From NCBI RefSeq assembly GCF_007049795.1, contig NZ_SCFY01000008.1:62001-126000 (forward strand): a DNA stretch of 64,000 bases, in the 5' to 3' direction. Numbering within the stretch: position 1 is the first letter of the stretch; each line of letters opens with the position of its first letter. The notes beneath the pieces were generated by a model. The model saw nothing but the letters and a program-made list of their open reading frames with translations. It did not search any database and was not told the origin of the DNA. This document shows positions 46,945-50,882 of the stretch, piece after piece. This DNA is from Ectopseudomonas mendocina. GTDB lineage: Bacteria > Pseudomonadota > Gammaproteobacteria > Pseudomonadales > Pseudomonadaceae. The position numbers and the translations under genes were made by a program.

Positions 46945-47218
46945 TGCTGAACCTGCCTCCAGGAAACTGCAAAAGAGTACGGATCGAACTCGACCCGCGA
47001 GGGGCGCCAAGCATACGCGTGCCGGACGCTTAGCGCGACGTCTCACGAAACATACGCCGCCAAGCTTGACACCCAGCCAGAAGCACCGAGATAGAGCGCC
47101 CCGATCAAGTATTGAGGGGATCGATGTTCACTATCAGGTCAGTCAAGTTCTTATCTTCGCTCATGTCCTCAAGAATTGACTCCGAAGCCACTTATTACTC
47201 CCCAACGGAGACAACGAC

Positions 47219-47842
47219 ATGAAAACTCAACTTAGCCTTGCCGCCCTGGCCCTGAGCCTGATGACCACCAGCGTATTCGCCGCCCCGAGCAGCGCGCCCT
47301 TCCCTCTGGTGGGTGAAGCCAAGGACAGCCAGGTCCAACAACAACCCGTCGCACCGTTGGCCGAGAACGGCTCCGAACGCACTCCGGGCGCGCAACGTAT
47401 TCAACTGGCAGAAGATGGTTACGACCGTACTCCCGGCAGCCAGCGCATTCAGCTGGTAGAAGGTGGATATGAACGTACCCCTGGCGCCCAGCGCATCCAG
47501 CTGGCTGAAGACGGCTCTGACCGCACTCCCGGCAGCCAGCGTATCCAACTGGTAGAAGGCGGATATGAGCGTACCCCTGGTGCCCAACGCGTCCAACTGG
47601 CCGAAGGTGGTTACGAACGTACCCCAGGCGCCCAGCGCATCCAGCTGGCTGAAGATGGCTCTGACCGCACTCCCGGCAGCCAGCGTATCCAGCTGGTAGA
47701 AGGTGGATATGAGCGTACCCCTGGTGCCCAGCGCGTTCAGTTGGCCGAAGGTGGTTACGAACGTACTCCTGGCGCACAGCGTGTACAGCTGGCCGAAGGC
47801 GGCTCTGATCGCCTGATCGAGCAACGTGGACGTACTGCCTAA
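47219..47842 (+). CDS. Secreted 16-residue tandem-repeat protein, function unknown
   Basis: A 207-residue protein. A signal peptide (about 1-21, SVFA-APSS) is followed by a 26-residue linker and then nine consecutive 16-residue repeats (48-191) with consensus AEGGYERTPGAQRIQL, plus a degenerate tenth copy ending the protein. Position 1 alternates A/V, position 3 N/D/G, positions 5-6 Y/S and D/E, position 11 A/S, and position 14 I/V. The repeats are charged and lack Cys and Trp, suggesting an extended or fibrous exported protein, perhaps in the periplasm or cell surface. A ribosome site (GGAG) and strong terminator frame it as a single-gene unit. I do not recognise the family. Confidence 0.8.
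   Translation: MKTQLSLAALALSLMTTSVFAAPSSAPFPLVGEAKDSQVQQQPVAPLAENGSERTPGAQRIQLAEDGYDRTPGSQRIQLVEGGYERTPGAQRIQLAEDGSDRTPGSQRIQLVEGGYERTPGAQRVQLAEGGYERTPGAQRIQLAEDGSDRTPGSQRIQLVEGGYERTPGAQRVQLAEGGYERTPGAQRVQLAEGGSDRLIEQRGRTA
47360..47839 (+). repeat. 48-bp in-frame tandem repeat array
   Basis: Nine full and one degenerate 48-bp units. Units 5-7 and 8-10 show the same V/Y, A/Y, A/S order, so a 144-bp (three-unit) block was probably duplicated. The unit length keeps all three frames open, which creates long but meaningless open frames on the other strand. Confidence 0.9.
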
Positions 47843-47860
47843 GTGTTATCGCAACACCCC

Positions 47861-47885
47861 AAGCCCGGCACAGGCCGGGCTTTTT
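47861..47885 (+). terminator. Rho-independent terminator of the repeat-protein gene
   Basis: AAGCCCGGC and GCCGGGCTT form a 9-bp stem with loop ACAG followed by five T. It also ends opposite-strand transcription weakly. Confidence 0.9.
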
Positions 47886-47933
47886 CATGCCTGCGGTTTA
47901 TAGGCGAGCGCGCACTGGCACGCACGCAGCGAG

Positions 47934-49016
47934 TCACGCCGTCCCTGCAGAGGGCAAGCGGTAGATCCAGATACGTCGCAGCACGGTCGAGAACTGCCCC
48001 AACAAGGTGCCGCAGTTGTAATGCTGGCCATAACGTTTGGCGATCAGGCGCACCTCACGCGCCAGTTCGGCATAGCGCCGCGCGGGCAGATCCGGGAACA
48101 GGTGATGCTCGATCTGATGGCTGAGGTTGCCGGTCAAAATATGCAGCAGCGGTCCACCGGACAGGTTGCTCGAGCCACGCAGTTGCCGCAGATACCAGTG
48201 TCCGCGTGTCTCCCCTTGCAATATTTCGGGCGCAAAGACCGCCGCCTTCTCGGTGAAATGGCCGCAGAAGATCACCAGAAAGGTCCATAGATTGCGCAGC
48301 AGGTTGGCCACCAGATTGCCAGTCAGCACAGCCATGGCATTGGCACCGAGCAGCAAGGCCAGCAGCGGAAACGCCAGATAGTCCTTGCCCCACTGCCGCG
48401 CCAGCTTGGCACCGAACTGACGTGCCAGCGGACGCACCTCCTCCTTGCTGATGCGGCCTTTCACCAGTTTGTCCAGCCGCAGGTGCTGGATCGCCACCGC
48501 GTACTGGAACAGCAGCGCCTGGATCGTCACCCACAGCGGCTGCCAGCGGTAGAAAGGCTTCCAACGCTGCTCCGGGAACAGCCGCACCACGCCGTAGCCA
48601 ACGTCATCGTCCATGCCCAGCACGTTGGTGTAGGTGTGATGCACATGGTTATGGGTGTGCCGCCAGAAGTCAGCGGGGCCGACGATGTCCCATTCATACT
48701 GGCGCCCGGCGAATTCCGGGTCGTTCATCCAGTCGTACTGGCCGTGCATCACGTTGTGGCCCAGCTCCATGTTCTCGAGGATCTTGCCCAGCCCCAGCAA
48801 GAACGTGCCGAGCAGCCAGGTCGGTGGAAACCAGCCAAACATCAGCAGCGCACGGCCAGCCCAGCAGCACAGGCGCACCACGCCACGCACACGGCGGATG
48901 TAGCGCGCATCGGCCTCGCCCAGGTCGGCCAGGGTACGCTGGCGCAACGCATCCAGCTCCTGACCGAAGGCTTCGAGCTCGGCAGGGGTCAACTCACGAT
49001 CGGGACGATGGCTCAC
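47934..49016 (-). CDS. desB: Acyl-CoA/phospholipid delta-9 desaturase DesB
   Basis: A 360-residue membrane diiron desaturase. The three histidine boxes are present: GHNVMHG (HX3H), HTHNHVHH (HX2HH) and NLSHQIEHHLF (HX2HH). Hydrophobic helices flank the first and third boxes. In P. aeruginosa DesB with reductase DesC makes unsaturated acyl chains under DesT control; the same three-gene order is seen here. The start is GTG at 49016, overlapping the desC stop (GTGA) with GGAGA upstream; a Met codon further upstream lies within desC. Confidence 0.9.
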   Translation of the reverse strand: MSHRPDRELTPAELEAFGQELDALRQRTLADLGEADARYIRRVRGVVRLCCWAGRALLMFGWFPPTWLLGTFLLGLGKILENMELGHNVMHGQYDWMNDPEFAGRQYEWDIVGPADFWRHTHNHVHHTYTNVLGMDDDVGYGVVRLFPEQRWKPFYRWQPLWVTIQALLFQYAVAIQHLRLDKLVKGRISKEEVRPLARQFGAKLARQWGKDYLAFPLLALLLGANAMAVLTGNLVANLLRNLWTFLVIFCGHFTEKAAVFAPEILQGETRGHWYLRQLRGSSNLSGGPLLHILTGNLSHQIEHHLFPDLPARRYAELAREVRLIAKRYGQHYNCGTLLGQFSTVLRRIWIYRLPSAGTA

Positions 49017-50098
49017 AGGTCGATCTCCACATCCCCATGCGGGGCGCTGACACATAGACGGATGGGCTGCCCGGGCTCGGCGAACAGCGTACCGCTGCGC
49101 AGATCACGCACCGTGCCGGCCAGCAGCAGACAGGTACAACTGGTGCAGATGCCCTGACGACAGCCATGAGCCGGACGCAGCCCGGCAGCTTCGGCCTGCT
49201 CCAGCAGACTTGCATTGCTGCTGCCAGAGACCTGCTGCCGGCTCCGGGCGAAGCTCAAGCGGACCTCGCCAACCTCCGTTTCGGCCAGCATCGGAAGCGG
49301 ACTGAAGCTTTCCGATTGCACGCTGCTGCCGCGTCCGGCGTCATGCCACCAGCCACACGCCTGCTCGACAAAACCACGCGGGCCACAGACCCGCAGATGA
49401 TCGCCCGGCAACGCGGCCAGCCGTTCAGCCGACAGGCGATCACCCTCGCCACTGAAAACCCGCTGCACCTGGAAGTTGGCATGACGTGCCGACAATGCCT
49501 GCAGCTCTGCGGCAAAAGCCTGCTGCCCCTGATGACGAACCTGATGCAGCAACGTCACCGGCGCAGAGAAGCCACGCGCGAGAGCGTCACGCAACAGGCC
49601 GAGCAACGGGGTGATGCCGCTGCCAGCCGCCAGTAGCAACACGGCGTTGTGCTCCTGCGGCCAGGCGAACTCACCGAATGCCTGACCCAACTCGATCACC
49701 TCACCCACCTCCAGGTGATCGAGCAGCAGATTGGACAGGCGCCCGCCCGGCTGGCGTTTGATCGCAATCTCGATGCACCCGTCGGTTGCCACCGACGTGA
49801 GGCTGTAACTGCGTCCGTGACGCACGCCGTCCTGCTCCAGATACAGCTGGACATGCTGCCCGGCTCGCCAGTCGCGCGCATTGCCATTGCAGCGCAGTTG
49901 CAGCGTCAGCATATCGTCGGCGACCCAGCGGCGCGCCTCGACCTGAGCGAACACCCGATTGAGACGCAGCGCCGCGTGCAACTGACGCAGGCATAGATCG
50001 ACGTCCGCTTCACGCAGCCAGCCGTTCGCACAAAGCTGACGCAGGGGCCGTAGGTAAGCCGCCAACCACCGCGCCCCAGAGAGAGAAAGTAAAGCCAT
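49013..50098 (-). CDS. desC: Flavodoxin-reductase-like 2Fe-2S electron donor DesC
   Basis: A 361-residue oxidoreductase supplying electrons to DesB. An FAD-binding barrel (RSYSLTSVA, near 102) is followed by an NAD-binding domain (LLLAAGSGITPLLGLLRD near 155; VCGPRGFVEQ near 237) and a C-terminal plant-type 2Fe-2S domain (CRQGICTSCTC with a later Cys in RLCVS). It is translationally coupled to desB. The ATG at 50098 is nearest the desT-side operators; the longer frame is not needed. Confidence 0.9.
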   Translation of the reverse strand: MALLSLSGARWLAAYLRPLRQLCANGWLREADVDLCLRQLHAALRLNRVFAQVEARRWVADDMLTLQLRCNGNARDWRAGQHVQLYLEQDGVRHGRSYSLTSVATDGCIEIAIKRQPGGRLSNLLLDHLEVGEVIELGQAFGEFAWPQEHNAVLLLAAGSGITPLLGLLRDALARGFSAPVTLLHQVRHQGQQAFAAELQALSARHANFQVQRVFSGEGDRLSAERLAALPGDHLRVCGPRGFVEQACGWWHDAGRGSSVQSESFSPLPMLAETEVGEVRLSFARSRQQVSGSSNASLLEQAEAAGLRPAHGCRQGICTSCTCLLLAGTVRDLRSGTLFAEPGQPIRLCVSAPHGDVEIDL

Positions 50099-50109
50099 CG
50101 AAGAATTCC

Positions 50110-50168
50110 AGTGAACACTTGTGCACAAGGCTGACAGATAGCCTGCATTTCAGTCAACATTCGTTCAC
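50110..50168. promoter_or_regulatory. Two candidate DesT operators
   Basis: GTGAACACTTGTGCAC (50111-50126) and GTCAACATTCGTTCAC (50153-50168) are imperfect palindromes in the divergent desC/desT promoter region. The GTGAAC / GTTCAC arms resemble the DesT operator as I recall it from P. aeruginosa. Confidence 0.55.
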
Positions 50169-50246
50169 CGAACTAGATCTGCGCGGTTCGACGCTGGCGC
50201 CATGCATTTGCTAGAGTGCGGCATCGCTCAACGACCACGATTTCGC

Positions 50247-50882
50247 ATGACGCCACGCGCCGAACAGAAGCAGCAGACTCGCCAGTCCCTGATGGACGCC
50301 GCCCTCACCCTGATGGAGAGCGGGCGCGGCTTTGGCAGCTTGAGCCTGCGCGAGGTCACCCGCGTCGCCGGCATCGTGCCCACCGGTTTCTATCGCCATT
50401 TCGCCGACATGGACGAACTGGGTCTGGCGCTGGTGGCGGAAGTCGGTGAAACCTTCCGTGCGGCGATCCGCCAGGTGCGCCGCCACGAGTTCGAAATGCG
50501 CGGCATGATCGACGCCTCGGTGCGTATCTTCCTTGCCGAAGTAGCTGCTAATCGCGCTCAGTTTCTGTTCCTCGCCCGCGAGCAGTACGGCGGCTCGCAA
50601 CCGGTGCGCCAGGCCGTTGCGGCCCTGCGCGAACGCATCACCAGCGACCTGGCCGCCGACCTCAAGCTGATGAACCGTATGCCGCACCTCGACGATGCAG
50701 CGCGCGACGTGGTGTCGGATCTGGTGGTCAAGACCGTATTCGCCACCCTGCCCGAACTGATCGACCCACCCGCTGAAACCCTGCCGGCGCACCTCACCGC
50801 AGAAGCCAAGGTCATTCAGCAGCTGCGCTTCATCATGGTCGGTGGCAAGCATTGGCTGGGGCTGGGCAAGCCCTCCGACTAG
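50247..50882 (+). CDS. desT: TetR-family regulator DesT
   Basis: A 211-residue TetR protein. The N-terminal HTH (SLSLREVTRVAGIVPTGFYRHFADMDEL) is at about 34-62; the C-terminal ligand domain has FLFLAREQYGGSQPVR. In P. aeruginosa DesT senses the ratio of unsaturated to saturated acyl-CoA and represses desCB and fabAB. It is transcribed divergently from desCB across 148 bases with two palindromes. The ATG at 50247 is preferred over a start at 50202. Confidence 0.88.
   Translation: MTPRAEQKQQTRQSLMDAALTLMESGRGFGSLSLREVTRVAGIVPTGFYRHFADMDELGLALVAEVGETFRAAIRQVRRHEFEMRGMIDASVRIFLAEVAANRAQFLFLAREQYGGSQPVRQAVAALRERITSDLAADLKLMNRMPHLDDAARDVVSDLVVKTVFATLPELIDPPAETLPAHLTAEAKVIQQLRFIMVGGKHWLGLGKPSD

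Follow-up and report, generated by a model that had tools for sequence, protein, structure and literature searches.

A tandem-repeat protein gene of Ectopseudomonas mendocina with a MexT-like promoter box: a probable member of a fast-changing Pseudomonas family of the PA4881 type

Analysis of a 64,000-nucleotide stretch of the Ectopseudomonas mendocina genome (contig NZ_SCFY01000008.1, positions 62,001 to 126,000; hereafter the window) revealed, at positions 47219–47842 of the plus strand (stop codon included), an open reading frame for an exported tandem-repeat protein of 207 aa, which by its position, promoter and repeat type appears to be a member of a fast-changing family in Pseudomonas. 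We place considerable confidence in family membership and in control by MexT, a regulator of chemical-stress and drug-efflux responses, taken jointly. That the product is a Sec-exported, probably disordered, MexT-activated extracytoplasmic stress protein of the PA4881 type is the account that we find rather likely, and a role as a shield of the envelope is put forward tentatively, as a proposal more open to doubt than to assertion.

Residues 1–21 (47219–47281) form, by inspection, a signal peptide with a probable cleavage site between SVFA and AP, in agreement with the export claimed in the first-pass annotation. They are followed by a conserved linker, APSSAPFPLVGEAKDSQVQQQPVAPLAENGS (47282–47374, defined from a 15-ortholog alignment), by nine units of 48 bp or 16 residues (47375–47806, from TRF and unit anchoring) and by a degenerate tenth unit with the C-terminus DRLIEQRGRTA (47807–47839, from unit anchoring and a motif scan), all on the plus strand. 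TRF reported the 48-bp array at 47375–47799 with 8.9 copies, as well as a 144-bp superperiod at 47367–47812 with 3.1 copies (score 624), and the regularity noted at first reading was thus confirmed. The description of the array as nine ERTPGAQR repeats was correct in number but loose in wording: six units carry ERTPGAQR and three DRTPGSQR, and together with the degenerate tenth (DRLIEQRG), which ends AEGGSDRLIEQRGRTA, they make ten units spaced exactly 16 residues. Units 3–5 (47471–47614) and units 6–8 (47615–47758) of the same strand differ at just 8 of 144 bases, against 15–42 differences in the remaining 20 three-unit block pairs, so that the three-unit duplication is indeed recent. Two long antisense ORFs over the array (minus strand, 47195–47824 and 47232–47888; 209 and 218 aa) are by-products of the 48-bp period. 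The ORF layout agrees with the proposed single-gene unit. As to the terminator, a 9-bp stem, a 4-base loop and a T run are evident by inspection at 47861–47885 (plus strand), and an intrinsic terminator is therefore probable there, but the consensus terminator scanner did not list this site among its calls. A scan for a sigma-70 consensus promoter of the repeat gene found none.

The mature protein (from residue 23) comprises 185 aa with a pI of 5.1 and a GRAVY of −0.98, and is devoid of Cys, His, Met and Trp. An explanation of this composition as avoidance of reactive residues owing to electrophiles was dropped, as His, Lys and Met do occur in the proteins at the PA4881 place. Structure prediction, as proposed in the first-pass annotation, was performed with AlphaFold2 on a 15-row ortholog alignment and yielded a mean pLDDT of 37.1, which is weak evidence on disorder given that the 15 rows are closely related; the sole helix (residues 4–17) lies within the signal peptide, and the model is consistent with a mature repeat protein that is probably disordered. 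Among the 36 unit pairs of the window gene mean pS was 0.605 and mean pN 0.100 (pN/pS 0.165), indicating that the protein sequence of the repeat is maintained by selection. A neutral or selfish repeat expansion devoid of function would be in keeping with the drift in unit number described below and with an array frameshift in one ortholog (L049, P. guguanensis); it is, however, largely contradicted by this substitution pattern, the ends and the promoter are conserved as well, and we consider it extremely improbable.

The leader and linker recur in orthologs at 18 named loci (in P. mendocina, P. alcaliphila, P. oleovorans, P. chengduensis, P. toyotomiensis, P. composti and others) and in further genomes. 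Their unit number ranges from 3 to 9 over 29 rows, window included, of which some represent one genome through two collections, two (L012, L050) are truncated where the contig ends and two (L020, L049) have a broken frame. The same-species genome G064 (L014) carries seven units as compared with nine in the window gene, and the suspicion that repeat number varies between strains was thereby substantiated. Such variation, even between two genomes of one species, is what a surface or secreted antigen or adhesin would display if changes in its repeat number served phase or antigenic variation. Neither Pfam nor NCBIfam gave a match to an anchor, autotransporter or adhesin domain, however, and the repeat sequence is kept, as judged from the above pN/pS value, whereas antigenic variation should favour change; we hold this alternative to be quite unlikely. 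Single orthologs showed a frameshift or stop inside the array (L049, a frameshift; L020) or a changed tail motif (SGRLI in L045), possibly reflecting decay of single copies.

When the window protein was used as a query, 170 of 298 genus genomes were matched (E 0.001 or better), so that the search of other genomes suggested at the outset did detect relatives. Unit length differs by group from 13 to 21 residues, with 13-residue units such as VAEGGSDRLIENR, VAEDGFDRTGANR and VAADGSDRLQGNT, a 14-residue unit VAEDGYDRTPQGQT, and 18- and 21-residue units VAENGSSQTVDRLHKQ... and VADNGSERTIDRLHKQ..., and the unit core common to the family is AE[G/D/N]G-x-[D/E]R, from which some units deviate, for instance LAEDGYNNTPQGQ in L026. 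A wider search, whose query started 31 residues ahead of the start codon of the contig C30 gene and took in its signal peptide and about two units, returned 50 of 148 genomes from 7 of 19 genera and serves for locus finding only, not as a family count. In the own genome three family genes were found, namely the window gene, a gene with four 13-residue units (C30:17550–17795, minus strand) and a gene with five units of 13–14 residues (C55:70517–70822, minus strand). Elsewhere, at L118 (G128:C1:5712000–5728000), approximately 7 kb contain three repeat genes that are nearly identical, as are their boxes, but that differ in unit number. Paralogs with 11–16 nearly identical 13-residue units were observed at L074, L071 and L077, and in the latter two the array begins right at the signal peptide.

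A clear match to a known repeat family had been named in the first-pass annotation as what would refute its reading, and this outcome was obtained in part. No Pfam-A family was matched at its gathering cut-off (best 21.4 bits against 27, over an 11-residue stretch) and the NCBIfam PtrA domain fell 0.7 bits short, but a relative that is named and uncharacterised, PA4881, was found. PDB matches were weak (a Dot/Icm substrate at E 0.021 as the best, followed by malate dehydrogenases), a malate dehydrogenase model of NCBIfam scored 31.6 bits against a cut-off of 550, and two Bacillus records from the plasmid collection with approximately 32% identity were taken as low-complexity matches; all of these were rejected. 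Within the openly licensed literature, peptide strings of the family gave no match, a search for Pseudomonas tandem repeats gave, among the matches listed, only typing or other unrelated work, a search for PA4881 together with tandem repeat gave one description, and no paper was found for PtrA under the name ‘co-regulatory protein’. The PA4881-like kind is already known in print and the window gene is probably a further member of it; a genus-wide family with a common promoter, and the module that this family has in common with PtrA-type proteins, were not found described in that literature. A ‘phage infection protein’ that was induced 32-fold in P. fluorescens In5, according to PMC5557065, might be a relative of the family.

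The surroundings of the gene had been called uninformative about function in the first-pass annotation. This was not supported: several aeruginosa-type genomes have repeat genes at the side of the desaturase cluster, at the place of PA4881, and a MexT-like box lies upstream of the window gene. This LysR-type operator box, ATTG-AGGGG-ATCGAT-GTTC-ACTAT (47111–47134, plus strand), starts 108 nt before the start codon. We take the MexT operator to be ATCA-N5-RTCGAT-N4-ACYAT (the first R also being given as G), to which the window box has two mismatches, both within the ATCA part. No openly licensed paper giving the MexT consensus was found and, because the consensus is one that we presume, the box was tested in three ways. 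A perfect match to a family promoter element, RTYGATNNTYACYAT-N10-AASTTYTT, was detected by pattern scan at 47120–47152 (plus strand); this element spans the right part of the MexT-like box plus the downstream AAGTTCTT.

The family genes of the own genome agree in promoter layout, the 33-nt pattern starting 97–99 nt and the 24-nt box 106–108 nt before the start codon in each of the three. Scanning this genome for the 33-nt pattern with up to three mismatches gave nine sites, against one in the reversed control; three belong to the family genes (window 0, C30 1 and C55 3 mismatches), and the other six have no family gene downstream. At 0–1 mismatch the family element occurred 18 times in ten other genomes, 17 of these sites preceding repeat genes (the exception being L088), and weaker sites were mostly placed before or within other genes. 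Of 47 distinct family genes, 39 have the box itself, with up to two mismatches, 100–115 nt before the ATG; of 429 genes that neighbour them at these loci, none does. In this count genes seen via two loci were merged; it extends to loci up to L077 and leaves out L001, the copy from the window itself, and a 295-aa duplicate with a wrong start (L027/L064). Just one of the 429 neighbouring genes had a box anywhere in 147 nt, as did 2 of 9,400 shuffles. Family genes other than direct orthologs of the window gene carried it in 15 of 22 cases. The eight boxless genes comprise L017, with three mismatches at the right place, L071 and L077, with four at the right place, and five with no trace of a box there, which belong to other subfamilies. 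Beyond the 47, the box was present in L156, L157, L158 and L162, and absent from L155 (cut by the contig end), L159 and L161 and from L232, one more repeat gene in G267. When up to three mismatches were allowed, the ATCANNNNNRTCGATNNNNACYAT box gave 411 sites in the own genome and 94 in the control; at this level it is common, so that a site has meaning only as a near match placed at the right distance. Comparison of 23 distinct ortholog upstream regions with the window revealed that 10-nt blocks between −110 and −21 are 88–100% identical and those between −200 and −131 55–81%, with 98% in the block −210 to −201.

Two aeruginosa-type genomes contained seven box sites with at most one mismatch, the reversed control none. 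These sites precede a repeat gene (two sites), a glutathione S-transferase gene with an ABC transporter, an ArsR-type HTH gene with an MFS transporter (presumably PA4354 and PA4355), an OprD-family porin gene and a 44-aa ORF (two sites). PMC3848899 groups PA2811 (permease), PA2812 (ABC transporter), PA2813 (glutathione S-transferase) and PA4354 with mexEF-oprN and PA4881; the MexT table in PMC12607905 contains PA2811, PA2812 and PA4354, and PMC10848761 has PA2811–2813 among pump-connected genes. As the box sites fall before MexT-linked genes, the box picks out genes of the MexT regulon. The 44-aa ORF (MSYSAKSFSALVNAL...) is conserved in both aeruginosa-type genomes, approximately 105 nt after a one-mismatch box (L211 and L214; G305 and G395). 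In the own genome a perfect MexT-like box (C58:29428–29451; L164, L198) stands ahead of two genes, one for a luciferase-like oxidoreductase, 95 nt away, and behind it one for an OsmC-family peroxiredoxin; these are possible further MexT targets, or the site may be due to chance. Two one-mismatch boxes approximately 1.5 kb apart on C4 (139070–139093 and 140572–140595; L165, L166, L193) each lie approximately 100–110 nt before a tiny repeat-free ORF (37 aa and 64 aa), both of which are hydrophobic near the N-terminus.

The regulator itself is encoded in the own genome. A mexT ortholog (C15:54699–55613) has 85% identity over 304 aa to what we take to be the MexT sequence of PAO1, and has as its neighbours a quinone-oxidoreductase-like gene that occupies the mexS position and that we assume to be mexS, a gene for MexE (738.2 against an NCBIfam equivalog cut-off of 714) and one for an RND permease. 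The mexT–mexE gap contains no good box (best 5 mismatches), and on the mexS side of the locus a box with three mismatches was found. A MexT match was obtained in 296 of 298 genus genomes; its presence therefore does not discriminate, and co-occurrence with the repeat gene offers no contrast.

Downstream of the repeat gene lie a fatty acid desaturase gene (47934–49055, minus strand; Pfam FA_desaturase), a ferredoxin reductase gene (49013–50128, minus strand; Pfam FAD_binding_6, NAD_binding_1 and Fer2) and a TetR/FabR-type regulator gene (50202–50882, plus strand; NCBIfam FabR, 153.7 against 151 bits, and Pfam TetR), which we take to be desB-, desC- and desT-like, respectively, and past the regulator is ureE. 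At four aeruginosa-type loci (L151–L154) two repeat genes each adjoin the same desaturase cluster, as judged by eye, and a box precedes the first repeat gene of the pair, the second having none by inspection. At the fluorescens-type loci L064, L065, L068 and L069 the genes in the vicinity of the repeat gene include TetR and urease accessory genes (names assigned by eye). The place of PA4881 was assigned by the gene order around it that we presume for PAO1. On the other side of the repeat gene, in the genome of L151 (L209), a gene matches 8W1D (E 1.6e-97), the PA4880 product according to PMC11150526, and the aeruginosa-type repeat gene therefore occupies the PA4881 place. PA4881 has been described as an uncharacterised tandem repeat protein under the control of MexT, whose promoter is bound by PA2206 and whose mutant did not show raised H2O2 sensitivity in a disk assay (PMC3557286). 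Further papers list it at the top of a MexT regulon table for PAO1 (Table 1) with a log2 value of −6.5 without mexT (PMC12607905), give a log fold of −10.68 without parS (PMC3848899), report its induction by an enynone (PMC10848761), place it within a MexT-linked signature (PMC5700673) and state that these genes are raised in a desB mutant, with data not shown in that source (PMC4521719). The comparison with PA4881 covered position, promoter and repeat type, and it is on these that the kinship rests; at this level of sequence evidence, kinship to PA4881 and regulation by MexT appear to be supported.

A second relationship emerged from the unit core. The AEGGxDR codon pattern, which covers some spellings of the motif only, occurred nine times in the own 5.1-Mb genome and once in the reversed control. 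Three of the nine occurrences fall in PtrA-type proteins encoded on C27 and six in the repeat family. Of these six, the C30 gene accounts for four and the C55 gene for one, and the remaining one closes the window gene, where AEGGS and the degenerate tenth unit together make the AEGGSDR motif common to PtrA-type proteins. Four more genomes contained 21 occurrences (18, 1, 2 and 0) in six ORFs by position, all of which, when translated, were repeat proteins or PtrA-type exported proteins. As the occurrences are confined to these two kinds, the module is close to private to them in the five genomes. The window protein scored 30.3 bits against the NCBIfam PtrA N-terminal domain (NF041599, cut-off 31), through three 11-residue stretches; the own C30 paralog and neighbours exceeded the cut-off (39.2 and 49.5), as did the three C27 proteins (71.5–83.5). 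At C27 (L059, L060) one of the three PtrA-type genes adjoins a response regulator/sensor kinase pair and the others copper-oxidase-like genes, as judged by eye. PtrA is, according to PMC7922089, PMC7744410, PMC8531726, PMC10393844 and PMC11195947, a periplasmic protein induced by Cu/Zn and linked to copper tolerance, and an older claim of a role in type III secretion is disputed in the same sources.

These data could be read to mean that the window protein is itself a periplasmic metal-tolerance protein of the PtrA kind, with AEGGxDR units binding or buffering copper or zinc under the control of CopRS or CzcRS, a reading which the near-private motif, the domain score just 0.7 bits below the cut-off and the reported copper link of PtrA would favour. 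The mature window protein, however, lacks Cys, His and Met, which makes soft-metal buffering by side chains unlikely, its PtrA match consists of three 11-residue stretches, and its promoter bears a MexT-like box, whereas none was found before three PtrA-type genes of other genomes. We therefore regard this reading as unlikely. A broader view, to which we assign a chance somewhat below even, is that one module, AE[G/D]Gx[D/E]R, underlies a genus-wide class of exported proteins, being single in copper-induced PtrA-type proteins and re-copied into arrays in MexT-induced proteins, often with several genes per genome. If this is true, the module would be a common polyvalent part of the envelope-stress response that two regulons deploy at different dosage, and the repeat-array proteins would be a high-output arm of the MexT response.

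For the MexT-activated stress protein that we favour, the biochemical function is one that we infer, and the course of events may be pictured as follows. By analogy with what is reported for P. aeruginosa, MexT would become active under electrophile, disulfide or nitrosative stress, bind the box and turn the repeat gene on strongly. The repeat protein would then presumably accumulate beyond the inner membrane, and the unfolded protein may shield the envelope as a polyvalent binder, each unit providing one AE[G/D]Gx[D/E]R module. What would count in such a binder is avidity, not exact length, and the unit number may therefore drift while the unit sequence stays; the repeat unit is conserved by sequence and not by number. 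The present locus indicates that PA4881-like genes are no curiosity of one species, being a widespread family with a common promoter signature and often several copies per genome. A hypothetical gene is thus turned into a testable question, namely which part the MexT response plays at the envelope beyond efflux, for which the motif common with PtrA-type copper proteins provides a second handle.

Three known systems invite comparison. Multi-core RiPP precursors of the thiovarsolin type (NF033878) likewise consist of repeated short units, and the exact length and strong conservation of the units could suit a precursor of secreted repeat peptides whose array is cut into 16-residue signals or antimicrobials. 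The match to NF033878 is weak, however, at 16.4 bits against a cut-off of 35, the window protein differs in having a signal peptide, and no maturation genes were seen beside the repeat gene among the part of the neighbours tested, so that we consider such a precursor very unlikely. PtrA (PA2808) and PtrA-type proteins are exported and carry the AEGGxDR motif like the window protein, but have it once, at the mature N-terminus, without an array and with a different body; unlike them, the window protein remains below the NF041599 cut-off and was not filed there. The closest resemblance to PA4881 lies in export, short tandem repeats, the position at the side of the desaturase genes, the MexT-like box and the presence of mexT in the genome. 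The aeruginosa-type repeat genes resemble PA4881 in turn, being placed between the PA4880 ortholog and the desaturase genes with a MexT box upstream. Repeat proteins at the PA4881 place have units of 18 or 21 residues, in contrast to the 16 of the window protein, whereas the leader and the core motif are common to both.
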